NCBI GenBank assembly: GCA_009746045.1
Contig: RPFO01000027.1
Coordinates: 6,076,509 to 6,140,508 of the forward strand
Reading direction: 5' to 3'
From: Mesostigma viride
Taxonomy: Eukaryota > Streptophyta > Mesostigmatophyceae > Mesostigmatales > Mesostigmataceae
Length of the DNA: 64,000 bases
The notes below the pieces were generated by a model. It did no database searches. It saw only the letters and a program-made list of their open reading frames with translations, and was not told where the DNA came from. This document shows, piece by piece, positions 2,773 through 63,107 of this stretch. The position numbers were made by a program, and so were the translations under genes. How positions within the stretch are numbered: position 1 is the first letter of the stretch; each line of letters starts with the position of its first letter.

Positions 2773-4042
2773 CCTGCAGCCAGAGCATCAACGCAGACAG
2801 CACCGTCGGCCCCTTCACCGACAGCTACGGTCCTGTTCCCGCCAATGTGAGCAACCCACCCTTTGCACCACTGAGGGCGCTCATATGCTATGTATTAAGC
2901 TCTTGGTACTCAGACTTGTAAACAGTACATTACTTTGCGCTCACCCACGTTCGCCATGTAAACATGTTTGTTGCAGCTATAATTGAGCAACTGCTGCTGC
3001 CAGTAATGCAGCCGGGTCAACGTACATACGTGTACTGTCAGCTAGTTTTGCACATAGCCACACACTCCAAGTCCTATAACTAAGCTGTTGCTACATTTTA
3101 TCCCACAAACCAAGGGGCCTGGGAGCTTAAGGGGGACGTTTCCCTCCTGTGCGGGACTGTATCGAAAGTGGTATATGAAAGCTTGCTTTTTAGTCGAATG
3201 GTTTGTCCATTAGCAGCATTGAGCTGAGAACGTCTGACTAGTCAACATAGCAGTTTCTGACACACCAAGATCCTAATTTATAGCTACTGTAGGAGAGCGT
3301 GCCTGGTTGCCCCATATGAAAGCGTTTATCAAGAACTAGGCATGGAGAATCAGCTTGCCTGATACGGTGTAAAATGTCGGTGCGCCTTCATGCCTCTTGC
3401 ATGATTCCTCCCTGCATGGCGCCTGCACCCTGCAGTGGTCAAGAACGTTTGCGGTGAGCCAGTTTGACCGAGCCTGTGGGACGCTGTATTCAGTTTCCAT
3501 CACATTCGTTGGCGGAGTCAGCGGCGTCGGTGGATACGAATCCTTGGAGCCCGTTCCCTTTGCTGTAATGCTAAACCTCATGGCTCAGATAACGCTTTGG
3601 AGATCCCATGCTGCTGGAGGTGTGGTCTTATTGGAGGTCAACCCTGTCAGATCGCAGGTCTCAAATGCGGGTGTCTACGACAATGTGCTGGACTTTGGGG
3701 GTACTTCTGGGGCGACGTTTTCTGGATTGAGTGTCGCAAGGTCGAACAGCACCACGTTGACCACCAACATCGGCGAGTTTATTTCTGCCACAGCCGGCAC
3801 GGTCGGCCAGGTTTTTTTTCCAACTACTGCCACAGCGACCTCTCAAGTGGCTGGCTCTGTTAACGTGATTCAATATTTCCAGACAAACGCCAGTGCCTCC
3901 CTGTCAGTCCGATACTTTACCACACCACCACCTCCACCACCTTCACCGCCTCCTTCGCCGTTGCCGCCGCCTCCTCGACCACCTCCTCCCCCGCCTCCCC
4001 CTTCGCCGCCGCCGCGTCTGTCACCGCCTCCTCAACCGGCCC
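2773..4042 (+). CDS. Anchor-E module 1 (exons 2773-2846 and 3436-4042)
   Basis: The short exon enters in phase 1, encodes CSQSINADSTVGPF and SYGPVPAN, and ends in phase 0 at a gtgag donor. After a 589-bp intron the long exon starts at TGG and reads WSRTFAVSQFDRACGTL, YESLEP, YDNVLDFGGTSGATF, TTLTTNIGEF, GTVGQVFFPTTATA and FQTNASASLSV. This follows the bacterial choice-of-anchor E pattern, with the FD.s.GtL start strand, DF.GtSG turn, GtV and sGsgNv..f.TnA.a...V.Y end. It continues with a Pro-rich linker of about 45 residues and ends at a gtgagt donor in phase 1. Intron sequence just before this exon resembles that before module 3, which points to recent duplication. Confidence 0.8.
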
Positions 4043-7000
4043 GTGAGTGACAGTGTACATGCCTGCGTATATGTAACTGCAATCGACCCTACCACTGGCG
4101 AGTAGAACATCCCAGTGATTTCCATGCACATATGATTTGTTGTCGGTGCCGACCGTGTTGACAATCATACTGGTACATATGTATCGTATTATGTAGCGGC
4201 ACTGTGCTTCTGGTCACTTGTGACCAACGGCATACTCACTTTTGTATTGCATGCGAGACACGGGCCGCACTGTATGAATTGCACATGTGAGATACACCAC
4301 AGTCTGGATTGCGTGTGATATATTACTGTACACCACGGGCGTCAATCCAAGTGGTACTAGTGCGCGTACTTGGTAAGTGTGCAACAAAAGCCGAAGCTCA
4401 CCTGCAGGGGACAAGGGATTTGTCAGAAACTCGAGGAGGAGGAGGAGGAGGAGGAGGAGGAGGAGGAGGAGGAGGAGGAGGAGGAGGAGGAGGAGGAGGA
4501 GGAGGAGGAGGAGGAGGAGGAGGAGGAGGAGGAGGAGGAGGAGGAGGAGGAGGAGGAGGAGGAGGAGGAGGAGGAGGAGAAGGAGGAGGAGGAGGAGGAG
4601 GAGGAGGAGGAGGAGGAGGAGGAGGAGGAGGAGGAGGAGGAGGAGGAGGAGGAGGAGGAGGAGGAGGAGGAGGAGGAGGAGGATATCGGCGAGCTGATGC
4701 GTTTGTGTGGCAGAGGTTAGCAATATCGAGTATCGATTTTTCATAAATGTCGGCTCAGTGGGGGATTTTTGCCTTAGCTCTTAGATGTGTGTTGTAGGCT
4801 AACATCGCGACTAGTGCACAATATCGCAAGCCATCTGCTTTGCGTAGGTGACTCTGACAGGGCAACTCTTTTGTGGCTCGCCGTCTTGCGGGATATCATG
4901 CGGAGTCGTAATTAGTAATAGTAGTACACTTTTAGGACGTTCCGTATCTACTGTATGAGCTGTAGAGTGCGGAATGCCACACTCATGTTTTAGAAAAAAA
5001 TTTCATGGTTCTACAGTAGCCACTGTCATGTCATGGCTGTGATCAGGTGACGCTAATCGTGGCCTACAGTGCATGTGCACAGAAATAGACTGTGTGCAAA
5101 TGTGCGCAATGTCATCCTCTATGCTAGCGCCCGTTCTTGGGCTATGGTTATTAAGCCAAGTTTTACTGTAACTTTTACTTTAGAGTTGTTCTCATTTGGA
5201 CCTTGAAGACATGCAATACATTTATTATAAATAGTGACGGAACCTTTTTTCCATTTGGCCCTTGGGCAATTAGGTCCGTCACTATTTATCCGGCAAAAGC
5301 CACTCACCGGTATCTATTCCGCCTTTAAAGTTCACGTGAACGTGGCGCGGAATTGATACCGGCGAGTGTTTTTCGCCCCGGATAAATAGTGACGGACCTA
5401 ATTGCCCAAGCGGCAAAAATGTTCCGTCACTATTTATAATAACTAATACGTGTCAATGACATAAAACACTATCCACACAGCACACTATAGTAACATCCTG
5501 CACTACATGCATAGCACACTGTATGTAAACTTACATTTGGTGTAATGGCTTGATCCGGCGTGGCAAAGTACTACTAAAATACTACAAAGCGACGCACATT
5601 ACAGGTGTCCAGGGGTGCATGGGCCATGGATGCTGGTAACAAGATTACTCTGACACTACCTCCGAGACTCCGATCGAGCACTGTGCCATGGAATTTCTGA
5701 TACCCAATGACGTACCGTGGGTGTAAGAAATTGGCGCGCCGGACTGCCGGCCATGAAGTGCCTACATGTATACGGCCGGCTGCATGGTCCGCCGCCTTTG
5801 AGCCCTGTTGCATGTAGTGAATTTCCTGATCGAGCGCCAGCTTATGAAGATGTTGTTGTTATTGCTGCTGCTTCATTTCTTCATCATGGTGGACCGTCTT
5901 ATGAAAACTGATGGTGTGTGCATGCAGCATGCACCCAAACCATGTCAAGTTCTTGGTACAACACGTACGGCCCCTTCATCGACGAACAATATGCTGTTCC
6001 TACCAATGTGAGTATGCTTGTGGTTCCGCTATTATGCCCACGCACCCATGGAATCCACCGGTCTTATTGCATGTCTGCCTGCACTATATGCTGTATGTAT
6101 AGGTGCTGAAGCTAAGGTCCATTGGAGTGCCTTTCCGGCAGACATAAAAGTTAATTACAATACAATGTGTGCAGGCTTTATAGTGAAGCCTAGCCATGTA
6201 CCCTCAAAATTATTGTACAAGTCACTGTCAAGCTAGGCCAGCTCACCATTCAGGGGCCCGGCACATGCCTCTTTAGTCCCATCTTGTCCCAAAACAACAG
6301 CGAGGGTGGGTGGGTGGGTGGGCGGGCGGGCGGGCGGGCGGGCGGCGGCGGGCGGGCGGGCGGGCGGGCGGGCGGGCGGGCGGGCGGGCGGGCGGGCGGG
6401 CGGGCGGGCGGGCGGGCGGGCGGGCGGCGGGCGGGCGGGCGGGCGGGCGGGCGGGCGGGCGCGGGCGGGCGGGCGGCGGGCGGGCGGGCGGGCGGGCGGC
6501 GGGCGGGCGGGCGGGCGGGCGGGCGGGCGGGCGGCGGGCGGGCGGGCGGGCGGGCGGGCGGGCGGGCGGGCGGGCGGCGGGCGGGCGGGCGGGCGGCGGG
6601 CGGGCGGGGGCGGGCGGGCGGCGGGCGGGCGGGCGGGCGGGCGGGCGGGGGCGGGCGGGCGGGCGGGCGCGGGCGGCGGGCGGGCGGGCGGCGGGCGGGC
6701 GGGCGGGCGGGGGCGGCGGGCGGCGCGGCGGCGGGCGGGCGGGCGGGCGGGCGGGCGGGCGGGCGGGCGGCGGGCGGGTGGGTGGGTGGGTGGGTGGGTG
6801 GGTGGGTGGGTGGGTGGGTGGGTGGGTGGGTGGGTGGGTGGGTGGGTGGGTTAGGGTGGGTGGGGGTGGGTGGGGTGGGTGGGTGGGTGGGTGGGTGGGC
6901 GGGCGGGCGGGCGGGCGGGCGGGCGGGTGGGTGGGTGGGTGGGTGGGTGGGTGGGTTAGGGTGGGGGGTGGGGGTGGGGTGGGTGGGTGGGTGGGTGGGT

Positions 7001-34000: not shown

Positions 34001-35470
34001 CACAACAGCTCCACTGCGCCCTAGCGCTGCGCCTTGATAGATATTTTCACTACCAAAGTCCTGCCCGCATGCGATTGTAGTTCGGCTGTTTGACACCCCT
34101 TCCCAACTTAATTGTCTTCATATAATAAGGCCGGCTGTGCTGCAACCTTCGACCTAATTTCAATGGTTGTCAGCTCACAATCAAGTTGCTTCTGTCCATT
34201 CGGTTGGCGAATTTGGATAGCACAACATGCATAAATTCCAATGACATACCATGTACCTGGATGATGATGCGTGCCTGCAGGGCCCTGCAGCCAAAGCATT
34301 ACCTGGAATACTGAAAATGGCGGTTACTACGAGCGCAGCGACAGTTACGGTCCTGCTCCCACTAATGTGAGGAAGATGCATGTGTCTTGCAACACTGTCC
34401 CCACCAACCACTAGTAGGTTGCTTGTCAACTGCAGCTTGCTGTTGTCGTTGATGAGCACACACGACGCTCTCTCATTTCTGTTAGTGCTAGATTTTTTGC
34501 CTCTAGCTGGACAGACTCAGTCTGGAATAGACTTGCATGTGCGATGCTCAAACCTAAGTAGACTTGATACTTGGCATGCATAGGCCACACCTTGAGGGAA
34601 ACTGCACAAATAAGCACGCCTTTCCTCCACGTGTGGTATTGACAGAGGTAATAAGCAGGTACGTTTTGAGATCAGTTTCTGATACCATGCAGCCTTGGCA
34701 GTTTCTCTTCTCTGGCAAAGAGTATAGCTGTCTCCAATCAAGGGATGATCGCATTTAGTGGTGAATAGAGGCTGGGCATGCTTGGTTGACGTGGTGCCAG
34801 CTTGTGTGTACTAGCCAGTGCGTTTGATGCATGTGATGCCTTGAAAGCATTCATCAAGAAAGGGGCTGCATGGCTGCTGATGATATAGTAGTATGCAATC
34901 TAAGTGCGCTAGCATCTTCGTTTTTCTGGCATAATTTCAACCTGGTGCCGGCACACGATCCTGCAGTGGCAAAGAACTCTCGCGGTGAGCCAGTTTGACC
35001 GAGGCTGCGGGACCCTGCAAGCAGTCTTCATCTCCTTTGTCGGCGGAGTCAGCGGCACTGCTGCATACGAATCTTTGGAGCCCGATCGATATTATGTTAC
35101 GCTGAACCTTGGGGCTGTGATAGAGGTTCGCAGATCCACGGCCGCTGGCGGTGCGGTCTTATTTACTGTCAATCCCGTCACATCAGAGACCTCTTATGCG
35201 GATGCCTATGACAATGTACTGGACTTTGCCGGAAATTCTGGCAGAAATTTCAGCGACATATCCGCCAGAACATTGTACACCACCTATGTAAATTCTAGCA
35301 TCGGCGAGTTTATTTCCGCCACAGCCGGCACGGTTGGCCAGGTTTACTTCCCAATCACTGCCACCGCGACCTGGAGAACGAGTGGCGATGGCAATGTGGT
35401 TCAGTGGTTCCAGACGTATGCCAGTGCCTCAATATGGGTCGTGTACAGTGTTAGACGACCTACTCCACCC

Positions 35471-35516
<46 letters not shown>

Positions 35517-38500: not shown

Positions 38501-41500
38501 ATTCGCTCTTTCCCACAGTAAGATAATTGTTCTGCTGCTATATGTGACTTTTTTGCTGTGTATGAATTTGGTATTGGTACTAGCTGCTTACAGCGCTCAT
38601 GCAGCAAGCCGTGCAAATTCTGTTTTCCTTTTGCGTGTAGCTAATGAGGATGTGCCTAGCTAGGTACAACAATCAGTGCCTCATCACATTGGAAGTGTAC
38701 TGGGAGCATTATGTTTTCTACGGACTCCAGACACATTGACTGCAAAGCTGCAAGATAGCGGGGAAATCTGTTTGCTTTGATGGCCGGCGAATGCGTGCAT
38801 GGCGATGGGTGGCCTGGCTGTGGGATTAATGGTTTGCAGTAAGATTATGTATGTACATGATAGGGCTGCCAGGAAGGGAACTAATAATGGCATCGGCAAT
38901 CATAACAACTTAGGGTGCAATTAGCTATATGCGGAAGCTGCTGGCAACATGGCTTTGCTAAGAATGACGAGTGAGGGGATGCGATGGATTGAAATGCATC
39001 CAACAAAGGCGGGCAAGAAGATGGGTAGTGCTCAGGGTCTCAGGTCAGACAGGAAAGATTGTCAGGGCATCGTCTGGTACACACCGATCCTTGGAGGGTT
39101 GACCTGACATATGCATGTCAAGGGATACACTCCAGCATGCACAGCCAACCAGGTATGAAGGTGTACATTCAACTGGGTTAAACGGAAAGGTATGAAGAGG
39201 CTGCCTGTATTCATTTGGGAGAGAACTGAAGAGGCTGCCATTACTCATTTAGCTAGCACGTGCAGGACTGCACTAGCGTTTATTTTCCTTGCAGCATTGG
39301 CTGGGCTAAGCCAGGGCTATCGTGTTGACTGGGTTAAACCTGGGGATATGCATGGCATGTCCCGTGGAGCAATGCAGCGGGTGACGTGCGTGGTGGTGTG
39401 GGTGGGTAGCTGCATGAATGGCTGCATGGGCGGGCGGGCGGGCGGGCGGGCGGGCGGGCGGGCGGTGAGTGGGTGTTTGAGACTGTGGTAAGCTCAAACA
39501 GCTGACGGGCACCCTATCGCACAACACTCTGGGTACCTTCGACAGCATAGCTATAGAGCCAGCGAGCCAAAATGCTGAGCGCCGATGCTGCAGGCTTCCA
39601 GCAGTGCTGGTCAGTCCAGTATCCTGACACAACAGCACATCCATGCCCTAGCGCCGCTGGGGAGGAAATTTGTTACCTCCCACCCAGCAACGCGTGTTTC
39701 GATACGTAACCCTTGGGTATCTGATTTCACATACCCGACGCACACACATACGTAAGAGATGAAAGAGTCACGGCTTGCGCCCCCCCCCCCCCACACACAC
39801 ACACCTGCGCCCTCCGACTGGCTTTTGCGTCGGGCTCCCCTAGCTCCCCCCCACGTAGACCAACCCGTTGCATCGGGCCCCTCCCCTTTGTAAACCCACC
39901 GGCCGTCCCGTCACCGTCCCTCTTGGGTGTCTGGCCCACCTTGACAATTGTGACCACCTTGACAAGGCCGCCTCAAAACGACAATACCCCCGCGATGATG
40001 CCACGTGACAAATGACAACCTTGGGGGGCACCTTGACGCCACTGGACACCGCACCTCCACAAACAAAGCGCCTTGGTTGGCAATGCCGCGTGGACGGAGC
40101 ATGGCCGGAGCGCCATGCGATACATTTCATGAACACAGTCCTACCTGGGCACCACAGTGCAGTTTTCAATCACCAAAGCTTGTTTTGGAAAGGTGCCTTC
40201 AGTTGTTGTCTGTCAGGGCTGCTGCCAATTTGAGCTCTTCTGTACCATGAACTGTAGAGCGAGTGCCAGCTTGCAAAACTGACGCTGACGTTGATGTGGT
40301 TGCTGACTTCGCTTACCTGTCCTGGTGGACCGTTGTCCCTTGGATCGCATGCCGTGCGCACGCCTGGCGCCTGTGGCCCAGCCTGCAGCCAGACCATCAA
40401 AACGGATGGCACGGTTGGCCCCTTCATCGACAGCTTCGGTCTTGTTCGCACCAATGTGAGCATGCATGTGGTTGCACAGCATCCTAGTCTGTGCACCAGA
40501 GTGCATGCCCCTCTGTAGTTGATGCTGTTGATAGCTTACATTGGCAAGCTGCCTGCAATCTAGGTTTGCTAATTGGCGCTGTTCACTGCCGTTGCGCATG
40601 CTGCCATGCCTTATCATCTGGGTCTATGCATATTTGCAATGCTTACGTGCACAGCCATGCACACACGTCTTTTTGGTTGCTATTTCCCCCATCAACCCGC
40701 GCTATGGCATCAGGAAAACTGTGTTTTTTCTGACGTGAGGTATGCAGAATTTGCTAATTGACAGCTTGCTTTTGAAGTTTCTTTGTGCATGCAGCGTTCA
40801 GGTGGATTCTCTTGTTCTCGAGAATCAACATAGCGATTTTCAATCAAAAAATCTTGTGTAAGTGCATTTGAAAAGGGATCTCGCCTGGCTGATGTGATGT
40901 TAATAGCATGAAATTATACATGCATTGCGCTTGCTTCTTCACTCCTGCATGTTGCATGACACTTTCCTCCCTGGCCCACCGCACCCTGCAGTGGATAAGG
41001 ACTCTCACGGTGAGCCAGTTTGACCGAGGCTGCGGGACCCTGCAAGCAGTCTCCATCTCCTTCATCGGCGGAGTCAGCGGTGGTGCTGCATATGAATCCT
41101 TACAGCGCACTTCACTGGTTATAACGCTAAACCTTGCCGCTGTGATAGTGGTTCGGAGATCCACGGCTGCTGGCGGTGCAGTCTTGTTTGAGGTCAACCC
41201 GTTAAGATCGCAGGTCGCTAACGTGGGTGCCTATGATAATGTGCTGGACTTTGGGGGGACTTCCGGGGCGACGTTTTCCGGGCTGTCAGCCACCCGGTCG
41301 AACAGCACCACCTTGACCACCAACCTTGGCGAGTTTGTTTCTCCCACGGACGGCAACCCGGGCCTTGTTTTTTTTCCAACCTCAGCCACCGCAGCCTCAC
41401 AAGTGATTGCCTCCGGCAATGTGACTCAACAGTTCCAGACGAACGCCAGTGCCACAATAACAGTCCTGTACATGCTTTCAGTAATAACTGCCCCTTCTCC

Positions 41501-44500
41501 TCCTTCACCACCACCTCCTCCGGGGCCTCCGCCGTCGCTGTCGCCGTCGCCACTGCCGCCATACCCACCGCCGCCGCCGTCGCCACCGCCGCCATACCCA
41601 CCGCCGCCGCCATCGCCGCCACCGTCGCCACCGCCGCCATCGCCGCCACCGCCGCCACAGCCGCCACCGCCGCCACAGCCGCCATCCCCACCTCCTCCGC
41701 CGCTGCCTTCTCCCCCTCCTCGTCCGGCTTTCTGTGAGTGGCTGCACATGCTTCTGGCGTACTACATCCCTGTCACCGAATCCCAACTATCTCTTTCTAC
41801 AGTTGCCATCCCTGTTGCCAGTAAATTGCATTATGGGCATCATGGTGGTGTATTGCTTACATTTTAAGTGTCTGAGCTCAACCTCTGGCACGTTGACTAA
41901 CGTTACCTGTTGCTTTCCCAGCAATCCGTTCTTACACACACATAAGGTTGACACGTGCCTACGCGGACACCCTTAATTTCTGTTGGCTTTGCCCATAGTC
42001 TCTTCTTCTCAACCCGAACAGCTTTGTGAATAAAGAGTAGCATTACCGTTGAGGAGGCTGGTCCTTTCCTGTACTTGAAATTGGGAAGGACATGCCGAAT
42101 CCTGCTGCGCTGATCTCATACTTTAATGCATGATGTGAGCCCGTGCTGTTGCAAAAGAAAGGTGAGACCTCTCCCCCAAATGAAGGCCGCCATTTGCGAA
42201 CGGAGCCCCATTTTACTGCCAACTTAGATACAACTTGCGCCTTTGGAATTCACAGTGTTTTACGATCTTCCTCACAATCATGTTGTTGAATGACGAGCCA
42301 ATGCTAACGAGCTTTCTATTCTTGAATATGTTTGAAAGCTACATTATTCAATGCTAGTATTGCCATCTTACAAATCAACCCTTTCCTGTACTTGAAAATG
42401 AGAGGCATTGTCCCAAACATATCCGTGGGTAATATGCACATGTTCAGCACCAGGGCTCTCGTGCACCCTGTTGCAAAAGACTGGTTAGAATGACCCAGTT
42501 TGACAAAGGGAGCACCGTCATGTCATGCTGTTTCCGCAATGCACAGCTCTGGCAGGTGCTCCGCACGATACACCATTCACCATTGTCAATGACTTAAGCT
42601 CTCCCTCACAATGCTGTGGGTGGTGACGAGCCCATGCCAGTGCGCTTTCATTCTTAGTTATGCGAACGCCTCCTTGCTTAACTTTCCCCGCCCCTGGCTT
42701 GTCTGCATGCACGGTTCCCTTACGTGTGTGCTGGCATGGAGCAGTGCCCCCCCCGATTGTGGACCCCCCAGCGCCCCCCCCGGCTATAGATGCTGCAGCC
42801 TGCGCCGAGGCGGACTATGACCTCTCGTATGACTTGGTGAATGTCATCGACGGCGATACGGCCTGTGACTTCCCCAGCTACTTGCAAGACACCGAATCCG
42901 GCTGCCCGAGCACGACCTGCGGCGTTGGCACTTTCAGCCGCCCATGCTGCCCCTGTCTTGGAAAAATCATGCAAGCTTTCCAGACCTCTCGCGCCACCTC
43001 AGGGGTGCTCAGCCTTCAGGCATTAGTTGACTGCCGGTCACTGGTTGTGGGGGGCTGCCCCGTGCGCGCTTACCTGGATGCCATGAAGGCATGCACAGGG
43101 GTGAATGCAACCAGCTTGCCAGACCTGACCGGTGGTGTGGCTGGGCTGGAAGCCATCATAGGTGCGTGCGCAGAGCGCCACCATAATGTTGATACAAGTT
43201 TGATAGGCATGTATTAGCTGCAATGGCACCCTGACGATCAATAGTGGCCCGCAGAACAAGGCATTTTCTAATAGCGTTCTTTGGATGGGCGTGGTCTTTG
43301 CCTGTGTGCATGAGCCTCTAGATAGGCCGTCCACTCGCCAGTAACAAACCTCATACAGGAACATGTAAACAGCGCGCAAAGAGGGTACATGCGGCCATTC
43401 GTCCTCATTAGAAACAGCTGCTCGCAGATTTTGCGGTGGCTCTATTAATTTAAAGCACCTGTTTTGGCCCAGATTGGAAAAGTTAGTGTGGCAAGGGCAT
43501 GGGCAGGTTGGGAGCCCTGGGGATTTGTAATGAGGGAACCAGGGGCAGGATAAAAGGGGCGAGGAGGGAGCTGGGGATGGTGAATGGTTGACTGTTCAAC
43601 ATCCTCTGGTTCGCTTATTATTCGCTCCGGACAACTCGTATCATTTTGCACCTCTACTGATGTAGGAATGTTCGCAACTATCACATGCTTGGTCGGTTTA
43701 TACCAGGGTAGTTTGTGTGCCTGGTACAGCTCCCCCTTGGTCTGCATTTGGAGCAGAGATGCTACTGGCACACATGCATACTGTACAATGCTCCCTCCCT
43801 CCCTCCCTCCCTCCCTCCCTCCCTCCCTCCCTCTCCCTCCCTCCCTCCCTCCCTCCCTCCCTCCCTCCCTCCCTCCCTCCCTCCCTCCCTCCCTCCCTCC
43901 CTCCCTCCCTCCCTCCCTCCCTCCCTCCCTCCCTCCCTCCCTCCCTCCCTCCCTCCCTCCCTCCCTCCCTCCCTCCCTCCCTCCCTCCCTCGCTAATTGC
44001 TCGCATGTTGCCTTGCCCTGATGCTCACAAGCAGCTTCACAGTCAGTGAGATTTTGTCTCTGCTATCTCTGTGAATGGCATTCTTGATTGTGCTCCCATT
44101 AATTAATTAATTTAATTAATAGACACGTGACTGCATCACGTGTAAGTCCTCAGTGGGAGGGGAACATGGGATGGAATGGATGGTGTAAGATATCTAGCTA
44201 GGTCTCAGTTACAGGGTTGTGGGCACCGTGGCCCGAATCGCTATGAATGCCATACGCGGTCACACGCGGAGCCCCCACAGACGTGTGCTCCCATATTCAC
44301 TCGTAACAGCTGGAAGCTAGAGCTAGTGTACACCTGCAGGATACAGGTCTGTGATAAAAAGTCACTCAATGCTCACAGAACCCTTTATGGTATTGTAATT
44401 TTGCTTGTGGACTGTCATTCTATCAAGCCCCACTTAACCTAGCATACGCAATAGAACTCCTGGCGTATATCCGCAAATCTGCTCCCTGCCTGCAGCCGGT

Positions 44501-47500
44501 GGCTTCCTCAACCCCCGCACCCTGGCCTACAGCGAACGCGGCTTTGGAGGCGTCCCTGCTGCCCCTGCCCTGGCGGTGGGGCCCAACCACGTCATCACCG
44601 TTGTGAGGTCTTCATTCGGGCGGTCACTCTACCGTGTGTATGTAAAGGAGCCCTGGCTCCAGGTCAAGCAGTCCTTCCTGACCCAGTTCCACCGCTCCAA
44701 CACCATCTGTCGAACGGGCCCCTTTGTGGGCACCCCCAACACACTGTACGACCACCTGGCCGACCGCTGGCTGATTATGGAGCTGGCGCGTAATGCCACA
44801 GGCGGCTACTTCCTGTGCTTGCTTTTCTCTATCACGAATGTACCATATGGTCTGCTGTACCGTGGGTTTACCATCGCACTACCTAGCAACCCAGGGGAAA
44901 TCAAGATTGCTGTTATGCCGGATGCTTACTATTTGGGCTCAACCGAAAACCCGCCTACGGTATATGCCTTGGACCGGGCGCGGTATATAACAGGGGCCAC
45001 GGCCCGCCCTTTTGCAAGGCTGCAGGCACCAGCTTTGTCGGGCCTTGCGCTGCAGGGCTTGATGCCGGGGCTCCTGGATGGGAGCCCCAGGGCGTGGTCT
45101 TCCTGCGGGTTGTTCGCTCGCCCGGTGGATGACGAGCTGCATTCGCAAACGCCTGATGCCATAGCGGATTTCATGGAGGTGTGGGAGTTGTGCCCCAGCT
45201 TTGACAACACCACCGCGGCTCGATTGACTCGGCTAGCCAACGTGAGGGTGTCAGAGTTTGATGCTAGCATCTGCGGCAGCAGTGCGGACACCCCTTGTTT
45301 CGAACAGCCGGGTAGCGCCACGCGGTTGACCAGCTACCACGCCGGCATGCCGTCGCGGCTGGTTTATCGCAGCTTTGACGACCACGAGTCGCTGCTGGCA
45401 ACCTTCACGGTGGACGGGGGATACGACAGGGTGAGTCATGGCACGGTTTTTGCTTACAGATTAGTATTAGAGTTCCAATGGCAAATGTGAGCATCTTTTC
45501 AAGTATTATTGTCATTGTGAAGTAAGGCTGCTGCGTAGGCATGGGGACGAGCAGTTTTCTAAGACTATTCTGACACTTATCGTGTTTGTCCATAGTGATT
45601 CCTTAGGTTGAATTATGTCGTTGTATTTCATCACTCATCCATCCATCCCTGCAGGGCGCCATCATGTGGGTGGAGCTGCAGCGAGCTGTGGACACGTCCA
45701 GTGGCGCGCTGGGACCCTGGGTGCGTGTTCAGGACGGCATCACGCCCTCTGACGGCAAGAATCGCTGGCACGGCAGCGCGGCCATGGACCGGTCGGGTGA
45801 CATCGCACTCGGCTACTCGCTGGTGGATGCCAGCAATGGCACGTTTGCCAGCCTGTACTACACCGGCCGTGGTGCGCTCGCGCCCTACGGGGCAATGCCC
45901 AGCCCAGAGATGCTGCTGGTGGCTGGCACGTCGGCAGCCACCACGTCCAGCTTTGGTGGCCGCAGCGCCATGGCGGTGGACCCCGTGGACGGCTGCAGGT
46001 TCTATTTCCTGGGGCCCTGGGAGACGACGGCGAGCCGCTCCGCCACCTACCTGGGCGCAGTCGCCTTTGCGCGGTGCACAGGCAAGTGCGCAGCCAATTG
46101 CTTATTCCTCATCAGACTGGCGTTTGATGAGGAATGTAAGGAATTGGGATGGCATGTTGACTGCTGAAGGATGTAGGCAATGTGGCATCCGATGAGCAGC
46201 ACGCACGCATCAAGTACAGGAATTGCGAGATATTTTTTGAGCTATCTGCTCATTTTATAGTTATGTTGCGGCGGGCTCAAAGGGGGCCGATCTGCCGCCT
46301 GTAGCGTAGCTCTACCATACGTCATCTACACCATGTAAGGTGCTTGTTGTTACTTAGGACTAGAGAGAAGGGGACTGGCGTTGCGCCGGTACTAGTGCCT
46401 ACTGGCAGCCGTGCCCCCCCTTGATTGAGGGGGGCGCGGCGCCTTGCGACATGTGCTTTGTTTTCCATTTTCACACCGTACTTAGAGTGGTGTGGTGGAC
46501 GTAGGGAGGCCTTTTTGCAGCTCGCAACTTTCCAATGTGAGGAAAGGTGGGCTGGCCGCTAGGGGGGCCGCTTTGCGGCCACTATGGCTTTTACGCCCAA
46601 TGTCAGTCGACGCTGCCAGCCTCCCCGTGTTATGGAGAGGTGACCCGCTGTTTTTCGAAATATTGGTGAAAGGTTGTAGTGCTGGTCCTAGGGTGTTCCC
46701 CCATGGCGCTGGGGTGCGCCGGCCGGGCTCCAGTTGGGAGCCCGTAGTGACTTGAATTTCGAAAGTCAATGAAGAGGAAATGCGGTTTTTAGAGAAGGTG
46801 GGTTTTGGCGGAGAGCCCTGCGAAAGGACAGCGCGAGGTGACGATCCCTGAAGGACGCGCTAGATTTGCCCTAGGGTAAAGTGTCCGCCGGGGATTTTTT
46901 ATCCCTGTATAGGCGTGCACGGGGGAAGCAGGGCGTTTTTCATAAAGATGGGGGTCAAGAGAAACTAGAGGTGGAGGAGGGTGCACCAAAGGCAGTGGCT
47001 CCCGTGGGTCGGGGGGGTCCTGTCGGCATGGGGAGGGCAGCAGGCGCCCTGTACCCTCTCGGCGCTCCGGCGAGCATGCAGGCGCCTTCTGCCCTTGGTG
47101 ATAAGGGAGAGGTGGGAAGCCGCGGTAAACCGTGGGTATTCATGCGCATTCATAAAAACTCTTTGAAAAATGCTACAAGGCCTGGCAAGCCTGGAAAAAA
47201 AATTTGCGCCCGACCAAAGGCGGCGGGCTCCGCTTTGCCTTTGCTGTTTTCCCGCGCCCCCCTCGAGGGGGGGTGCGTATGGAACCCGGCAGTGAGGTCG
47301 GGCTTTGTTTTAAGAAAATGCATTTTATACCATAGTAAAGCTCGACTCGGCTGCGGCTGCGTCAAGGCTCAGGACACCATGGCGATGGTGAGCCTTGGCG
47401 CTAGGAGGTCCGCAGCCACCATCATCATCACGATGGGGGGGATATAGAGCCAGTGGCAGTGGCTCTACCCTCGGGGAATCCCAGCGGCTCTGCCGGTGGG

Positions 47501-48242
47501 CTGGTGATGGTGGTGGGGTGAGCTGGAGACGTTCCCAGGTGGCATAAGTCCTAAAGTGGCAGCTGGGATGCGCCCCTCTAATAAGGGGAACGCATGAGGC
47601 TCCGCCCTGCGTCCGCCGGGAAACCGTAGCGGCCACACGGGGGCGGGAGGGGGGGCATCATCATGCCAACAAGAGCCCAGCATTCCAAGTGGTTGCGTTC
47701 CTACCACCAGGGCTGGAAACGGCCTGGGTGGCCAGAGATGGAGATGTGGGACAAGATTGGACCAAGGGGGCATCTGCTGGGCCCCCTTTGTTCAATCTTA
47801 CAAGCTAGGCCTAACTTGACAATGACTTGTACAACGATTTTGAGGGTGTAGCTAGGCTCAACTGTTAAAGCCTGCACACACTTATTGTAATAAACTTGTT
47901 TCTCTGGTAGGAAGGCACTCCAATGGACCTTAGCTTCAGCACCTATAAGGAGATTTAGATGGTGTGTGCATGGAGCAAGTAAAGGCTAACTGGACATGGT
48001 AAAACCCTTCATCCTGTGGTTGCTAACCAGTTTGCCACGCAATGCCCATGCTTTTGATTTTTGCACGTTGGATGGTCCCTGCAGAGTCGGCCGAGTGCTT
48101 GCTGAACACGGATTGTAACGATGGCCAGTTCTGCACCCTTGACAAGTGTCGCGACGGGAAGTGTGTCAGCGAGCCAGATCCTCTGCTCTGTCGCTTTGGA
48201 GAAGTTTGTGATGAGGAGGCAAATATCTGCAGAGCACCTTGA
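2773..48242 (+). CDS. Giant multi-exon secreted protein: six choice-of-anchor-E-like modules, Cys-rich modules, beta-propeller-like C-terminus (5' incomplete)
   Basis: Seventeen exons can be chained: 2773-2846, 3436-4042, 5928-6007, 14189-14807, 20716-20789, 21665-22265, 34281-34366, 34967-35534, 35935-36360, 36977-37050, 37623-38154, 40382-40455, 40992-41733, 42745-43161, 44496-45430, 45655-46081 and 48085-48242. All introns fit GT-AG except the last, which is GC-AG. Every junction keeps frame, giving about 2,164 residues ending in TGA at 48240. The order is six repeats of an anchor-E-like beta domain plus Pro-rich linker, with a Cys-rich module after repeats 4 and 6, then a propeller-like region and a Cys-rich tail. 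Linkers of PPSPP type suggest hydroxyproline-rich extracellular matrix protein (inference). Transcript support would be needed to exclude several adjacent genes, but uniform phases and the lack of any stop or start between modules favour one gene. The 5' end is missing. Confidence 0.8.
4433..4683 (+). repeat. (GGA)n microsatellite, about 250 bp
   Basis: A near-perfect GGA tract of about 83 units has a single interruption (gagaagg near 4579). It lies in the intron after module 1 and forms a purine-only plus strand. The poly-Gly, poly-Glu and poly-Arg frames it creates are not genes. Confidence 0.97.
5222..5442. mobile_element. Palindromic (foldback) MITE, 221 bp
   Basis: The two arms are near-perfect inverted repeats around a centre at about 5332 (gttcacgtgaac). 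The ends are TTATTATAAATAGTGACGG and its complement. The motif AAATAGTGACGGA occurs four times, terminally and internally in each arm, next to a conserved ggncctaattgccca block. It has no coding capacity. It is a non-autonomous DNA element by structure, with superfamily unknown. It sits in the intron between modules 1 and 2. Confidence 0.85.
5928..14807 (+). CDS. Anchor-E module 2 (exons 5928-6007 and 14189-14807, split by an 8.2-kb repeat-filled intron)
   Basis: The short exon (80 nt) is the most diverged of the six: CTQTMSSSWYNTYGPF then YAVPTN. It keeps the Cys, the YGP and the final Asn before the phase-0 donor. The long exon begins WQKTLAVPQFDRGCGTL and has YESLEPNG, LTLKLGAVIEVRRSTAAGG, YDNVMDFGGTSGATF and FQTNASATITVQYF. 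About 40 Pro-rich residues with Ala and Arg breaks follow before the gtaagt donor. The intron between the halves holds repeat X1 with the GGGC/GGGT array, repeat X2 and DIRS element A. Despite this, both exons keep splice sites and reading frame, so the module appears functional. Confidence 0.75.
6101..7764 (+). repeat. Repeat family X copy 1, containing the expanded GGGC/GGGT array
   Basis: The family's left end is GTGCTGAAGCTAAGGTCCAT and the right end has tataaaatgagcagaagctcag. Between them are gcctagccatgtaccctc, the array, aaggcctccctacgttcacc, and cggcagatc. The same order of blocks recurs in all family copies in this window. No protein is encoded. The class is unknown (non-autonomous), and no terminal inverted repeat is obvious. 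Confidence 0.75.
6304..7479 (+). repeat. GGGC/GGGT tetranucleotide array, about 1.18 kb
   Basis: About 290 units occur as blocks: GGGC-rich (to about 6776), GGGT, GGGC (about 6899-6927), GGGT, GGGC (about 7011-7036) and GGGT to the end. TTA interruptions occur at 6851, 6956 and 7197, each followed by runs of four or more G. The plus strand is an extreme G-quadruplex candidate. Gly/Arg/Trp and Pro/Thr/His frames across it are artefacts. Confidence 0.97.
7766..8405 (+). repeat. Repeat family X copy 2, left part
   Basis: It starts directly after copy 1 with ggtgcgggagctcaggtcca, follows the family through the cccggcggac block, and stops at ttaaatggtatatttg, where DIRS element A begins. The right part of a family X copy resumes at about 12590, so this looks like one copy split by insertion. 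Confidence 0.65.
8679..9858 (+). pseudogene. DIRS element A gag-like reading frame, frameshifted
   Basis: It starts MTSATVTAPERTFKAKIK, then CTPEEAATAVQNILGAGFWL and AEKVMDALEERGF. The alternative frame carries MADLDGNTGRLLGTE and LLSNMLEAVLPGMLNYAESV. Frame one returns for GKSIRASIMLTMHGN, RRMLILQMAGILDTIVKDF and LELAKAEHLAKLITACQLVD. A third frame ends HKLKQSPGKKKGQ, SNNNNRSKGAV and a stop at 9858. Element B has the same blocks, so the three-frame layout is an inherited decayed gag. I infer gag from position before RT. No zinc knuckle is seen. Confidence 0.55.
9992..11697 (+). pseudogene. DIRS element A reverse transcriptase/RNase H region, frameshifted and truncated
   Basis: Blocks in successive frames are QQAALDEIDDVCRSFVRRNG, KPDSRIRLIVDSHRGNMPLP (template-grip-like), LSDLDSYYNRLCLP (motif A-like), CWPMGNKLAVAVAQCV (motif B-like), HAVTIDDLHFNHGAS (motif C-like, IDD where most families have Y.DD), and LSGRVIASDASSSGGGLVYI (start of RNase H, first catalytic Asp). 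At least three frame changes are needed, and they are at the same places as in element B. After about 11697 it diverges. Confidence 0.6.
11698..12589. other. Intergenic/intronic stretch without recognisable feature
   Basis: It lies between the truncated DIRS element A and the resumed family X sequence. No frame with recognisable content is seen. It may include the true 3' part of a rearranged element. Confidence 0.4.
12590..13597 (+). repeat. Repeat family X copy 2, right part
   Basis: It shares the blocks cagccgctgccattggtgca, ctgaaaaacacccttctg, cagggctctccgcc, gactttcgaaatcaaagtca, ggcctccctacgttcacc and aaaatgagcagaagctcag with the full copy at 26141-27823. It is probably the continuation of the copy interrupted at 8405. 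Confidence 0.65.
13826..13955 (+). repeat. Intronic CCACCGANGTGA-type short motif cluster, copy 1
   Basis: Degenerate repeats of CCACCgNNGTGAaat/caccgaggtgagt lie in the intron before the long exon of module 2. A closely similar cluster is at 21180-21355 before module 3. Confidence 0.55.
15137..16311 (+). pseudogene. DIRS element B gag-like reading frame, frameshifted
   Basis: It starts MTTTVTALDRNVIAKCKK, then CTPKEAATAVQEILGVGVWL. A stop follows AALEES, and the next frame continues GFISDWDGEEALVDVLAAQL. Later blocks are GKSIRASIILSIQGGG and LALQMAGILDTMVTEFSYW, then EVILELAEAEYLAKLIAACQ, and the last frame ends NNNNRSKGAVPPSAASSSAT. It is more diverged from element A than the RT region is. 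Function as gag is inferred from position. Confidence 0.55.
16443..18636 (+). pseudogene. DIRS element B reverse transcriptase/RNase H region with frameshifts
   Basis: Blocks across frames include QQAALDEIDDVCRSFVRRNG, KPDSRIRLIVDSRRGNMPLP, LSDLDSYYNRLCLP, CWPMGNKLAVAVAQCVHQ and VTIDDLHFTHGAPVDG. Then come DKVVRATAEQAGVQAVGVIH and RELSSVLGKWVWMHLAVVP (thumb/connection). The RNase H core is ASDASSSGGG, YNHINVREAIA, VVRLVDSRAVVGAFV and VATDHNPADKASRR, carrying D, E, D and D catalytic positions. An in-frame TAG (18331) interrupts the RNase H. Shifts at about 17530 and 18130 match element A where comparable. Catalytic residues are preserved although the frames are broken. Confidence 0.65.
18460..18486 (+). 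other. 2A-like GDVHPNPGP motif
   Basis: In the RNase H frame, just after PADKASRRGAWIPDLTRW, the codons read GDVHPNPGP. The 2A ribosome-skipping consensus is D-V/I-E-x-N-P-G-P. Here His replaces Glu. GD(V/I)HPNPGP is also frequent in LINE proteins. It lies between RNase H and recombinase coding regions. Confidence 0.45.
18461..19201 (+). CDS. DIRS element B tyrosine recombinase
   Basis: The frame shows the full tyrosine recombinase signature. Arg lies in YLRISEALGLRVRDV, Lys in LRNPKTAQGAAQHVLV, HxxR in HNLRHGGATHDAI, Trp in LRGRWASALS, and the nucleophile Tyr in TRYFG. This enzyme integrates DIRS-type circular cDNA, in contrast to the DDE integrase of LTR elements. There is no ATG before the catalytic core, and it lies +1 relative to the RNase H frame. 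It would therefore need frameshifting, splicing or a lost start. The conserved part begins near 18590. It is about 200 residues and unbroken to the stop. Confidence 0.8.
   Translation: MTCIPILGLRAAALFRLSALRLRPGGSLCYFTALLLVSRRQVHLSVLIIVAVQQYLRISEALGLRVRDVAHLGHPFLAQGPTAGALVLRNPKTAQGAAQHVLVRDPLSLSLLRHLTAGQPPDALIFRGLACSQSRQQWEAVQARMGIPGMSSFHNLRHGGATHDAIAGESREAIQLRGRWASALSVTRYFGLHWGLMGQDFLPALWAQALVFFTRRFFGATSVASSFDVFQLSSLVLQLSTDLILV
19283..19810 (-). repeat. Repeat family X copy 10, within DIRS element B
   Basis: On the plus strand it reads ttgctcattttatagttat, cgggctcaacagggaccgac, cccacccaccctcgttgctg and tactccaatggtccatgg, i.e. the reverse complement of the family blocks. It separates the recombinase region from the presumed 3' end of element B. 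Confidence 0.6.
20081..20715. other. Intron remainder before module 3, nothing recognised
   Basis: Only short frames without recognisable content are present up to the acceptor at 20715. Confidence 0.4.
20716..22265 (+). CDS. Anchor-E module 3 (exons 20716-20789 and 21665-22265)
   Basis: The short exon encodes CSQSTNVDGTVGTF and SYGPAPTY. The long exon opens WSRTFAVSQFDRACGTL, nearly identical to module 1 through SVSITFVGGVSGVGAYESLEP. It then diverges after the DFGGTSGATY turn (LTATSSNNTILTTSIGGF). Its linker mixes Pro with Ser, Arg and Tyr and ends PPLPAD before the gtgagt donor. Modules 1 and 3 share exon and flanking intron sequence more closely than either does with 4-6, so one is probably a recent copy of the other. 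The 12-kb intron that follows (22266-34280) is almost entirely repeats. Confidence 0.8.
21180..21355 (+). repeat. Intronic CCACCGANGTGA-type short motif cluster, copy 2
   Basis: It contains gtgccaccgaggtgagtttg and gttccaccgacgtgaaatc plus weaker copies, parallel to 13826-13955. Both clusters lie a few hundred bases before a long anchor-E exon. Confidence 0.55.
22503..23105 (+). repeat. Repeat family X copy 3 (short form)
   Basis: It shares gtccattagaaattggagtg, gcctagccacaccatc, the two-unit gggt tract, ccctccctac and cggcagatcggccccct with the family. The internal block is missing. Confidence 0.6.
23107..24105 (+). repeat. Repeat family X copy 4 (diverged)
   Basis: It begins ggatggtcgaacttgaggct, continues with gcctagccacaccatcgaaa, ggggcccagcatatgcccc and a degenerate internal block, and ends near gcgagctgcaaaatggcttt. 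It abuts an inverted copy. Confidence 0.5.
24106..25500 (-). repeat. Repeat family X copy 5, inverted and diverged
   Basis: It starts ttgttgagctttgctcaatg, continues cggacgggctcaaacctgcc and gggaggcctcttttcagct, and later includes ccgggaaaccgtatagcgg and ctggcacgagatggg. It forms a head-to-head arrangement with copy 4. Confidence 0.5.
25627..26134 (+). repeat. Repeat family X copy 6 (short form)
   Basis: It starts aggtgctgaagctaaggtcc, includes gggtgggtgggtgggtggg (25828-25846), the minimal form of the array expanded in copy 1, and ends aaaatgagcagatagctca. It directly precedes copy 7 head-to-tail. Confidence 0.75.
26141..27823 (+). repeat. Repeat family X copy 7 (full length)
   Basis: At about 1.68 kb this is the most complete plus-strand copy, running from gtgctgaagctaagctgtcc to aatgagcagatagctcaaaa. 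It has internal blocks cgctacggtctcccggcgg, cgcaccccccctcgaggggg and cagggctctccgccaaaacc. No long frame is conserved between it and copy 11, so it appears non-coding. Confidence 0.75.
27870..28310 (-). mobile_element. Internally deleted DIRS derivative
   Basis: Read on the minus strand, 28310-28087 matches the 5' leaders of DIRS elements A and B (gctatgct..., A/T run, gctataaaaggtgggcttcc). The adjoining 28080-27870 matches the 3' segment of element B at 19850-20080. A short gggt tract marks the junction. All coding sequence is missing. Confidence 0.65.
28359..29935 (+). repeat. Repeat family Y copy 1 (long form)
   Basis: It runs from ggttttctctgaatatattt to gggagcttagtgatctt. It holds about 840 bp (about 28966-29806) that are absent from copies 2 and 3. 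The only frames (e.g. minus 29158-28883) have no recognisable domain. Class is unknown. Confidence 0.7.
29936..30690 (+). repeat. Repeat family Y copy 2 (internally deleted), directly abutting copy 1
   Basis: Near-identical to copy 1 over about 600 bp at the left and 130 bp at the right. The interior is replaced by a short ccctccctcccaccc filler. The end of copy 1 and start of copy 2 touch. Confidence 0.75.
30820..31330 (-). repeat. Repeat family X copy 8 (inverted)
   Basis: It contains caagccctggtcggggctt, gggaaaccgtagcggccaca and gcctagcacacaaaaatg, as in copies 5 and 9. Confidence 0.55.
31376..31935 (-). repeat. Repeat family X copy 9 (inverted, short form)
   Basis: It starts tgttgagcttcgctcatttt, includes cacccacccacccacgctgc, and ends actccaatggaccaaaaac. 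Its right half is nearly identical to the end of copy 8 (about 31190-31370), so these two are close in age. Confidence 0.65.
31936..33220. other. Intronic stretch without recognised feature
   Basis: One plus frame (32748-33140, 130 codons) has no recognisable motif and no homologue elsewhere in the window. I see nothing else of note. Confidence 0.4.
33221..33845 (+). repeat. Repeat family Y copy 3 (internally deleted, diverged)
   Basis: It has the same internal deletion junction as copy 2 (ccctccgtcccaccctggag) but many substitutions, so it is an older member of the deleted subfamily. Confidence 0.7.
34281..35534 (+). CDS. Anchor-E module 4 (exons 34281-34366 and 34967-35534)
   Basis: The short exon is the longest (86 nt) and has an insertion: CSQSITWNTENGGYYERSDS then YGPAPTN. 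The long exon has WQRTLAVSQFDRGCGTL, YESLEPDRYYVTLNL and YDNVLDFAGNSGRNF in place of the usual FGGTSGATF, then SIGEFISATAGTVGQVYF. Its linker is an almost pure proline run encoded by a perfect CCG repeat at about 35468-35514, probably a length-variable tract. The donor is gtgagtgg. It is followed after only 400 bp by the first Cys-rich exon. Confidence 0.78.
35468..35514 (+). repeat. (CCG)n coding microsatellite
   Basis: About 15 perfect CCG units encode the poly-Pro linker of module 4. This differs from the mixed Pro codons used in the other linkers. Confidence 0.9.
35935..36360 (+). CDS. Cys-rich module A exon
   Basis: This is a symmetric phase-1 exon (acceptor tcag, donor gttggc) of about 142 codons. 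It reads SYNFAVRLLDFSGWDNRCQW, then CPNVTTCSVGGASSTCCPCL, a hydrophobic stretch, and CTNLTYGCMLDSFFRLFVQC. It ends with a short PP.SPPSP linker. It is a paralogue of the exon at 42745-43161, sharing TTC.VG..S..CCPCL and the spacing of later Cys residues. I do not recognise the family. At least ten Cys suggest a disulphide-bonded extracellular domain. Phase fit to the flanking modules supports its place in the same transcript. Confidence 0.7.
36977..38154 (+). CDS. Anchor-E module 5 (exons 36977-37050 and 37623-38154)
   Basis: The short exon encodes CTQSINADRTVGTF and YSYGPVQVD. The long exon starts WQRTLAVPQFDRGCGTL and continues SVSISFVGGVSGKASVENLE, VTLNLAARIVVSRSSEAGG, FLDFGGGSGRLFD and TTLTTNIDEFLSATAGTVGQ. 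It is the most diverged long exon and has the shortest linker, about 15 residues ending SPPPLSPLPPF. The donor is gtacgt. The intron that follows (38155-40381) contains a short GGGC repeat and a poly-C/CA tract but no recognised gene. Confidence 0.75.
38155..40381 (+). other. 2.2-kb intron between modules 5 and 6
   Basis: It holds a (GGGC)9 tract (about 39427-39463) and a C13 run followed by CA repeats (about 39781-39804). No gene or repeat family from elsewhere in the window is recognised. Confidence 0.55.
40382..41733 (+). CDS. Anchor-E module 6 (exons 40382-40455 and 40992-41733)
   Basis: The short exon reads CSQTIKTDGTVGPFIDSFG then LVRTN. The long exon begins WIRTLTVSQFDRGCGTL and continues SVSISFIGGVSGGAAYESLQ, YDNVLDFGGTSGATF, SGLSATRSNSTTLTTNLGEF and FQTNASATITVLY. 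It carries the longest Pro-rich linker of the six, about 80 residues of SPPPP, YPPPPPSPP and PQPP repeats, encoded by CCGCCA/CCGCCG repeats on one strand. The donor is gtgagtgg in phase 1. Confidence 0.8.
42050..42665 (+). repeat. Degenerate tandem duplication in intron after module 6
   Basis: The blocks cctttcctgtacttgaaa, gttgcaaaaga and cctcacaat...gacgagcc occur in the same order twice, about 320 bp apart (42063/42381, 42148/42470, 42271/42603). This is a diverged two-copy tandem repeat. Confidence 0.45.
42745..43161 (+). CDS. Cys-rich module B exon
   Basis: This phase-1-in, phase-1-out exon of about 139 codons starts with a short PPPIVDPPAPPP stretch. It then reads YDLVNVIDGDTACDFPSYLQ, CPSTTCGVGTFSRPCCPCL, CRSLVVGGCPVRAYLDAMKAC and ends GLEAII before gtgcgtgc. 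It aligns with module A by its Cys pattern, which sets these two apart from the anchor-E repeats. The family is not recognised. It joins by a 1.3-kb intron (with a CCCT microsatellite and a LINE 3' fragment) to the propeller region. Confidence 0.7.
43792..43991 (+). repeat. (CCCT)n microsatellite, about 200 bp
   Basis: About 50 CCCT units with one phase slip near 43831 lie in the intron between Cys-rich module B and the propeller exons. The Leu/Pro/Ser and Arg/Glu/Gly frames across it are artefacts. Confidence 0.96.
44095..44297 (-). mobile_element. LINE 3'-end fragment (family Z copy 1)
   Basis: On the minus strand it runs from cggagccccc through gcatacggcattcatag-type sequence to the CACGTG hairpin (44124-44142) and an ATTA-rich tail. 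It matches the last 200 bp of the longer copies at 48957-49945, 56886-57523 and 57722-58607. Confidence 0.7.
44496..46081 (+). CDS. Beta-propeller-like secreted domain (exons 44496-45430 and 45655-46081)
   Basis: The two exons (phase-0 junction, 224-bp intron) encode about 453 residues. Recognisable blocks are ALAVGPNHVITVV, TLYDHLADRWLIMELA, YGLLYRGFTIALP, KIAVMPDAYYLG, YALDRARYITG, CFEQPGSATRL, SRLVYRSFDDHESLLATFTV, WVELQRA, RWHGSAAMDRSGDIALGYSL, YYTGRGALAPYG and SAMAVDPVDGCRFYF. In my knowledge these match a family of bacterial secreted or surface proteins with a propeller-like fold (the patterns ..DPSVVYD..a.RW, FGDHESLVVNHTV, RWMGSIAMDkaGNIALGYS and MSVDPvDDCTFWYT). Function in that family is not established. 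The second exon ends CACAG at 46081, followed by gcaagt, a GC donor whose phase fits the exon at 48085. Confidence 0.75.
46082..48084 (+). other. GC-AG intron
   Basis: The donor is CACAG followed by gcaagt and the acceptor is ccctgcag. It is the only non-GT donor among the sixteen inferred introns. It contains the full-length minus-strand repeat X11 (about 46237-47947). Confidence 0.6.
46237..47947 (-). repeat. Repeat family X copy 11 (full length, inverted)
   Basis: The plus strand starts ttgagctatctgctcatttt and ends ccaatggaccttagcttca. It is the inverse counterpart of copy 7 with all internal blocks in order (cccctcgagggggggtgcg, gaaaccgtagcggccacac). It lies within the GC-AG intron. Confidence 0.75.
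48085..48242 (+). CDS. C-terminal Cys-rich exon with stop codon
   Basis: After a tgcag acceptor the exon (phase 1 in) reads CLLNTDCNDGQFCTLDKC, GKCVSEPDPLLC and CDEEANICRAP, then TGA. The pattern C...dC.dg.fCt.d.C..G.Cv....C resembles short disulphide-rich repeats common at the ends of secreted bacterial and protist proteins. It is the only candidate that rescues the frame of the exon ending at 46081. Repeat X11 fills the intron between them. No clear TGTAA polyadenylation signal appears in the first 400 bases after the stop. Confidence 0.7.
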
Positions 48243-52789: not shown

Positions 52790-53289
52790 GGTTGCAGAAC
52801 GCCAGCAGAAGATCCCTAACCGCCGGATCAGGGGTCTTCAGCAGCTCAGCAGAAAGGTGGTCGGCACCGACCGCCGCATCGTACCGCAGGCGAGCAAGGG
52901 CGCCGTCCAATTCCTTCAAAGTGAAGGGGTGGACGACGCCGTCGATCAGTGGCAAGGCAGCCCTCCTGCAAGGCGGGGACTTGGTAGTCCGCGGCCGAGG
53001 AAGGGGGCGCTGGCGGCGGCGGGGGTCCGGCGACCCCGAGGCGGGCGGCCGTCTTGGGGTGAAGCGGCGGGGGGGGGGGGCGCGAGCCCCACCGGTCAAG
53101 GAAACAATGATTGTGGGCCAACCAGCCAGCGGTCAAGGCTGACCGGCGCCGTGCCATCCCCCGTGTCGGCTCCACCGGGGTGCGCTGCCGCCAGCCGCCG
53201 AGCCGGTCGAGGTGGTACCACATGTCCTTGCCCTGGTTGCGAGCTTGGCAGGCCTTGGCATCTGCGATGCACTGGGCCGCCTCCGCCAG

Positions 53290-62970: not shown

Positions 62971-63107
62971 CTGTTCAGCAACCGGCATAGGCATTCTCAA
63001 CACAAGAAACGATGTCAGTAAACAGGCCGTGACGGCCTCGAAGCCATCTGATAAGCAACCGGCACAGGCATTCTCAATAGAAGAAACAACAGCAGCGAAA
63101 AGGTGGT
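62953..63107 (-). repeat. Tandem duplication (about 77 bp, two copies) of the oxidoreductase intron/exon junction
   Basis: Plus-strand blocks gacggcctc(a/g)aagccatctg, agcaaccggca(t/c)aggcattctc and agaaac occur twice, at 62953 and 63031. The repeat spans the acceptor of the last exon, so a second acceptor-like atcag lies upstream. A third partial match (ggcctcgtagccatctgcag) is near 63719. Confidence 0.75.

Follow-up and report, generated by a model that had tools for sequence, protein, structure and literature searches.

A probable single giant gene assembled from phase-1 exon cassettes that encode choice-of-anchor E-like domains

The DNA described here, referred to as the window, is a stretch of 64,000 nucleotides (nt) spanning positions 6076509-6140508 of contig C335, from an assembly of 439,911,974 bases in 2,243 contigs. 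Between positions 2773 and 48242 the window carries an exon array that probably belongs to one very large, intron-rich gene for a modular, presumably extracellular protein, which may have grown by the exchange of phase-1 cassettes. An earlier sequence-only reading had proposed that a giant gene was built here by duplication of a two-exon cassette, present in six copies with the same boundaries, and that the exons chain in frame into about 2,160 residues. All six copies of the small and large exon are present at those boundaries. The spliced chain of 17 exons encodes 2,163 residues and has one stop codon, which is terminal (48240-48242). The proposal of one gene built by cassette duplication is supported by this exon chain, by paralogues, by splice phases and by the ratio of nonsynonymous to synonymous substitution rates (dN/dS). 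We regard the exon structure and phases, the domain identity, the paralogues and purifying selection as established at the level of the sequence.

Within the window, tblastn places alternating small and large exons, six of each, on the + strand. The small exons were assigned by tblastn, splice sites and phases. The large exons were assigned by tblastn, splice sites, phases and a match to the choice_anch_E profile. The remaining exons are rich in cysteine (Cys), resemble a propeller, or form the C-terminus. The exons are as follows.

2773..2846, + strand: cassette 1 small exon (phase 1 to 0)
3436..4042, + strand: cassette 1 large exon, choice-of-anchor E core and proline-rich (Pro-rich) linker (phase 0 to 1)
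5928..6007, + strand: cassette 2 small exon
14189..14807, + strand: cassette 2 large exon
20716..20789, + strand: cassette 3 small exon
21665..22265, + strand: cassette 3 large exon
34281..34366, + strand: cassette 4 small exon
34967..35534, + strand: cassette 4 large exon
35935..36360, + strand: first Cys-rich exon (phase 1 to 1), related to the second Cys-rich exon (35-37% identity)
36977..37050, + strand: cassette 5 small exon
37623..38154, + strand: cassette 5 large exon
40382..40455, + strand: cassette 6 small exon
40992..41733, + strand: cassette 6 large exon, with the longest Pro-rich linker (83 residues)
42745..43161, + strand: second Cys-rich exon (phase 1 to 1), with a counterpart in four of four paralogous loci
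44496..45430, + strand: propeller-like region, exon 1 (phase 1 to 0; paralogues, bacterial relatives)
45655..46081, + strand: propeller-like region, exon 2 (phase 0 to 1); the next intron is of the GC-AG kind
48085..48242, + strand: C-terminal Cys-rich exon with the stop codon (splice chain, paralogues)

The first Cys-rich exon lies between cassettes 4 and 5; cassette 6 is followed by the second Cys-rich exon, the propeller-like region (two exons) and the C-terminal exon. The small exons (74, 80, 74, 86, 74 and 74 nt) are all 2 modulo 3 in length, and the large exons (607, 619, 601, 568, 532 and 742 nt) are all 1 modulo 3. Length differences within either class are only multiples of three. Each copy of the small and of the large exon has an acceptor and donor of like kind, and each cassette is open from acceptor to donor with phase 1 at both ends. 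Introns between domains are in phase 1 (nine of nine) and introns inside domains are in phase 0 (seven of seven), counts in which copies of one cassette are not independent. The donors of the six large exons were first listed without a phase filter. For the Cys-rich exon at 35935-36360 the donor (AAG/GTTGGC) is weak and its choice was guided partly by phase. Large exons 2-6 share 59-81% protein identity with large exon 1 (tblastn). Symmetrical 1-1 introns at the domain boundaries, and units of 3n bases, are features of the class 1-1 modules known from exon shuffling; both are found in the window.

The repeat unit had been read as choice-of-anchor E-like, and the profile search agrees. With their two exons joined, all six modules match the NCBIfam family choice_anch_E (NF033208) at 87.3-103.5 bits, well above the curated cut-off of 23.8 bits. 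For the control, a single module typed by hand in reverse, the only match was to an unrelated family, at an expectation value (E) of 1.6. A chance or simple-repeat origin of the exons is ruled out by the 17-exon frame, the six choice_anch_E matches and the reversed-module control. Every module has exactly two Cys residues, one in each exon (six of six), and the large exons end in Pro-rich linkers of 13 to 83 residues. In an alignment with bacterial choice-of-anchor E domains, a YDxxLDFxGxSG block is largely common to both groups; of the two Cys, the one that precedes Gly-Thr-Leu occurs in none of the six bacterial domains compared.

Other families were also sought. Choice-of-anchor A was not listed for the six modules in the NCBIfam scan (E up to 1), a collection that we take to hold an anchor-A model. 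Pfam searches at E up to 1 with one of the six modules, both Cys-rich exons and both propeller exons returned no family, and thus no pherophorin domain (PF12499, DUF3707). A genome-wide search with PF12499 gave 0 matches, but 14 control genomes likewise gave 0, so that this zero says nothing for or against the volvocine label of the earlier reading. A Pfam scan of the C-terminal exon gave no PEP-CTERM sorting signal, and its Cys-rich tail has no hydrophobic stretch. Relatives of the module were not found in viral contigs, nor among solved structures by sequence search, and none of module 2 were found on plasmids.

The window array is one of several. With a single query module, the 440 megabase genome yielded 123 matches (E up to 1e-3), in keeping with the expanding family suggested earlier; this number is a lower bound, in which some split modules are counted twice. 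The order of cassettes, then second Cys-rich exon, then both propeller exons is kept at four further loci.

C1474, + strand: paralogous locus; cassettes, Cys-rich exon, propeller exons and C-terminal exon seen
C446, + strand: paralogous locus; the stretch examined ends inside the second propeller exon
C1474, - strand: paralogous locus; nine large exons, Cys-rich exon and propeller exons
C667: paralogous locus; cassettes, Cys-rich exon, propeller exons and C-terminal exon seen

Hence, the C-terminal exon was seen at two of the four loci (C1474 plus and C667). No separate counterpart of the first Cys-rich exon was detected in the stretches examined at the four. The number of modules varies between paralogues. 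Across the window, the upstream cassette described below and the paralogous loci, acceptor and donor phases agree in 22 of 22 small exons checked. All 25 large exons have a phase-0 acceptor, which in one of them is displaced by two codons, and 24 have a phase-1 donor; the one without is an interrupted copy at C1474:94611. The listing of donors at the paralogous loci was confined to the expected phase, and the acceptors there were identified by eye in the flanking sequence. Both paralogues whose donor was read retain the GC-AG intron behind the second propeller exon.

Some further observations concern these loci. The 1.7 kilobases (kb) before the first cassettes of C1474 (7320-8992) and C446 (3064102-3065780) are 95.5% identical, and hence apparently stem from a recent segmental duplication. 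A second cassette type occurs among those of the first type, with three copies at C1474:14857-25832 (L043-L045) and one at C446:3072211. It has a further intron after about 125 codons of the main part and is without a Pro-rich linker; in all three copies read, a candidate phase-1 donor follows the last exon. Upstream of the minus-strand gene of C1474, an open frame (L056) resembles, by eye, a bacterial pre-peptidase C-terminal domain. This frame is perhaps an upstream exon of that paralogue.

Comparison of the propeller, Cys-rich and C-terminal exons of the window with those of the paralogues gave dN/dS values of 0.17-0.27 in 11 of 13 cases, the synonymous rate being undefined in the other two. 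For the second Cys-rich exon, dN/dS was 0.18-0.27 against three of the four loci and undefined for the fourth. Values among the six window modules were 0.29-0.67, below 1 in all 15 pairs. Such ratios are those of a translated, constrained gene and so argue for a constrained family, not for chance or decay. At the DNA level, the propeller and C-terminal exons are 88-91% identical to near paralogues and 65-68% identical to C667, and the Cys-rich exon is 69-83% and 57% identical, respectively. Identity of introns was 7-45% (three introns against C1474 plus, one of which was aligned to C1474 minus as well), calculated over all alignment columns including gaps, so that unequal lengths depress the lowest values.

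A seventh cassette lies 6-18 kb before the window start (C335:6058425-6058501 and 6069516-6070134), with like boundaries and phases. Judged by its exons, the gene is longer than the window and its start is not at 2773. The 11.9 kb preceding the upstream cassette showed no convincing first exon, and no convincing signal-peptide exon was seen in the window, the upstream region or the paralogue flanks examined.

The modules also inform on how the array grew. Modules 1 and 3 are each other's closest relatives; together with module 0, the upstream one, they form a supported clade. Their match continues for about 120 nt into the intron that precedes the large exon; hence, the copying of at least this unit involved genomic DNA, intron included. 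The tree places module 5 with C1535 and the final cassette of C1474 minus. Thus, some cassettes are closer to relatives in other genes than to those in their own. In a tree of 52 rows, the 30 window-type modules form one clade (support 100/94), 8 bacterial rows fall on one side of a branch (90/82) and 14 intronless rows fall in two places. The bacterial rows are a thin sample, from a motif-based scan of one collection. Six of the eight C546 modules (83-99% identical) were left out, as were matches under about 120 profile positions and hence split modules. The domain starts at CAG/TGG in 29 of the 30 window-type modules; in the remaining one the CAG is shifted. Horizontal transfer of the choice-of-anchor E domain from bacteria is plausible on these relationships, rather than demonstrated.

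Giant intronless open frames are also present in the same genome, as follows.

C546:209501-217500 (L048): 2,260 residues, eight modules 83-99% identical, open to the contig end
C1107: 2,322 residues, four modules, thrombospondin-type end
C1741: 2,408 residues
C1557: 2,603 residues, cohesin and TMEM132 matches just over their cut-offs

The four intronless modules scanned all exceed the choice_anch_E cut-off (103.5-113.7 bits). The near identity of the C546 modules is a sign of recent tandem expansion. In the stretches examined, nothing in these concatemers matches the propeller, Cys-rich or C-terminal exons; the module is therefore also used without the C-terminal head. Partner domains of the module are Root_cap and, marginally, ITI_HC_C (L016), TSP_1 (L049), and Cohesin with TMEM132 (L051). 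Root_cap as a partner, like the Pro-rich rods, is consistent with a green alga. The occurrence of one module with different partners is a further mark of class 1-1 exon-shuffled modules. In three of three cases the partner is in the same open frame as the module, which therefore indicates domain promiscuity and not intron-mediated shuffling in each case.

Downstream of the cassettes, the propeller-like region comprises 453 residues. It has relatives on four plasmid records, from Deinococcus (two), Streptomyces and Gemmatirosa (best E 1e-37). A pairwise alignment with a Deinococcus protein (31% identity) spans the exon junction and so supports the splice. Neither the region nor the two Deinococcus proteins contain a Pfam or NCBIfam family above cut-off. 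No relatives of the region were found in phages or, by sequence search, among solved structures, and none of the second Cys-rich domain on plasmids. The C-terminal exon matches only weak Cys-rich Pfam families (PF21164, 24.2 bits, below the cut-off of 27).

The same exons could be explained in other ways. They may be divided among at least two adjacent genes, with a break within 22266-34280 that would, for instance, separate cassettes 1-3 from the rest. That interval is 12,015 nt long and holds five families of direct repeats, and the 5' end of the gene was not found. Against this, the cassettes run open from acceptor to donor with phase 1 at start and end, and C1474:8989-31460 keeps cassettes and C-terminal part together within about 22 kb. 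A split is hence unlikely. The array might also consist of decaying or mobile-element-carried exon copies without a working protein, as retroelement sequence in the region and the interrupted cassette at C1474:94611 would allow. However, the 17 exons have no stop before the last codon, and splice sites are conserved though the compared introns have diverged. A pseudogene array is rejected on the dN/dS of 0.17-0.27 against paralogues, and we consider decay highly improbable.

A different question is whether the modules do more than separate other parts. The protein could be real and its modules inert spacers, with binding confined to the C-terminal propeller-like and Cys-rich domains. The C-terminal part is under stricter constraint than the modules, although these comparisons differ in kind (with paralogues and between modules, respectively). 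Module number varies between paralogues, and fold matches of the module give no ligand. Conversely, 52 positions are invariant among the six module copies, and the intronless concatemers lack matches to the head in the stretches examined. Inert modules are thus possible, if doubtful.

We favour one modular gene with the following organisation. In each cassette, a small beta-sandwich of choice-of-anchor E type would lead into a stiff Pro-rich rod. Seven or more of these units would be followed by a Cys-rich domain, then by a propeller-like domain related to bacterial proteins, and finally by a tail rich in Cys. One disulfide per module, joining the small-exon Cys to the large-exon Cys, is predicted. 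The architecture suggests secretion, and the Pro-rich rods may carry glycosylated hydroxyproline. The product may be a multivalent wall or matrix protein that binds glycans or neighbouring proteins, with beads on rods and a putative binding head at the C-terminus. A cassette bounded by phase-1 introns can be gained, lost or relocated through recombination within those introns while the reading frame stays intact; the array and its paralogues may have grown by this route. Every cassette can be skipped in frame, and therefore a family of length variants is predicted. There is perhaps an even chance that this is a large non-animal matrix gene family that arose by the mechanism regarded as peculiar to animals: a domain acquired from bacteria would have become a phase 1-1 cassette, which exchange within introns then multiplied and recombined, while intronless concatemers of that domain formed alongside it in the same genome.

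The window contains other elements. A retroelement stretch is present in two copies, 98-99% identical, inside introns (9942-10460 and 16393-16912), with neighbouring frames to 19201. One frame (18452-19198) has a Phage_integrase match of 24.8 bits, slightly short of the 27.1-bit cut-off, as in DIRS-like elements. A reverse transcriptase frame on the minus strand (51863-52837; PF00078, 84 bits) lies between 98% direct repeats at 49348-49547 and 56947-57146. ARAGORN predicts two threonine tRNA (tRNA-Thr) genes at 28793-28869 and 30371-30447, inside or next to a duplicated stretch whose copies are spaced 1.58 kb apart. Rfam gives no tRNA at gathering score, and the two genes are probably not real. 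A long GGGC/GGGT minisatellite occupies 6291-7482 in the cassette 2 intron, and a TCCC array lies between the second Cys-rich and the propeller exons (about 43789-43990). On the minus strand, 934-1485 matches Cauli_VI (RNase H1 N-terminal; 23.5 bits, cut-off 21). Also on the minus strand, a 448-residue open frame (61631-62974) has no Pfam match at E up to 0.01; by eye we take it to recall the end of a flavin adenine dinucleotide-dependent oxidoreductase.

The sequence-only reading considered tandem choice-of-anchor E domains with Pro-rich linkers undescribed, a view that holds in part. The phrase 'choice-of-anchor E' was not found in the literature searched, most subscription journals being outside the search. 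No title on this family was among the matches listed for PEP-CTERM and algal matrix, volvocine matrix, green-algal exon shuffling or Volvox transfer. Tandem arrangement itself has precedents, in choice-of-anchor A domains with spacers (PMC6541295, available text) and in a planctomycete protein (L004) with two choice-of-anchor E domains in tandem. Five bacterial choice-of-anchor E proteins were scanned, and match choice_anch_E at 102-180 bits, the highest having two domains. The domain is single in four and double in one; the window gene has at least seven. Two of the five have a PEP-CTERM signal above the TIGR02595 cut-off. Unlike the bacterial domains, the window modules are split by an intron, are joined by Pro-rich rod linkers and have the two-Cys pattern. 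At two bacterial loci (L001 and L002) a second, separate choice-of-anchor E frame lies beside the first.

The closest precedent appears to be the Jonah lectins of the Acanthamoeba cyst wall. According to the available text of PMC6541295, these lectins bind cellulose, and their choice-of-anchor A domains are proposed to have been acquired horizontally from bacteria. A protein has either one such domain or three, and in the latter case the spacers are rich in Ser and Pro. Other eukaryotes named there have three to five copies. Jonah lectins and the window gene are alike in placing a choice-of-anchor domain in a eukaryotic protein with Pro-containing spacers, and differ in the domain, A versus E. 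That text does not mention intron-flanked cassettes. The window family would thus widen the occurrence of bacterial choice-of-anchor domains in eukaryotes from anchor A in Acanthamoeba to anchor E, with about a hundred matches. Pherophorins, in the part of PMC9818292 available, have two globular domains and one Pro-rich rod. Compared with these and other volvocine hydroxyproline-rich matrix proteins (PMC9818292 and PMC10762512, both in part), the window gene has in common that globular domains are set apart by a Pro-rich rod.

A review of animal exon shuffling asks, in its available portion, why the process is 'restricted to Metazoa', and states that all domain types used are class 1-1 (PMC8001218). 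In the animal class 1-1 proteins as in the window gene, domain and exon boundaries coincide and phase-1 introns lie at both ends. An extracellular type of architecture is common to the animal proteins and is likely for the window protein. Unlike the animal proteins, the window gene uses a domain of bacterial type and Pro-rich rods of algal type, on a presumed algal lineage. It is therefore a candidate for non-animal exon shuffling of extracellular domains, and a candidate exception to the restriction to Metazoa. With intron-flanked and intronless forms of the module in one genome, the order of events could be read.
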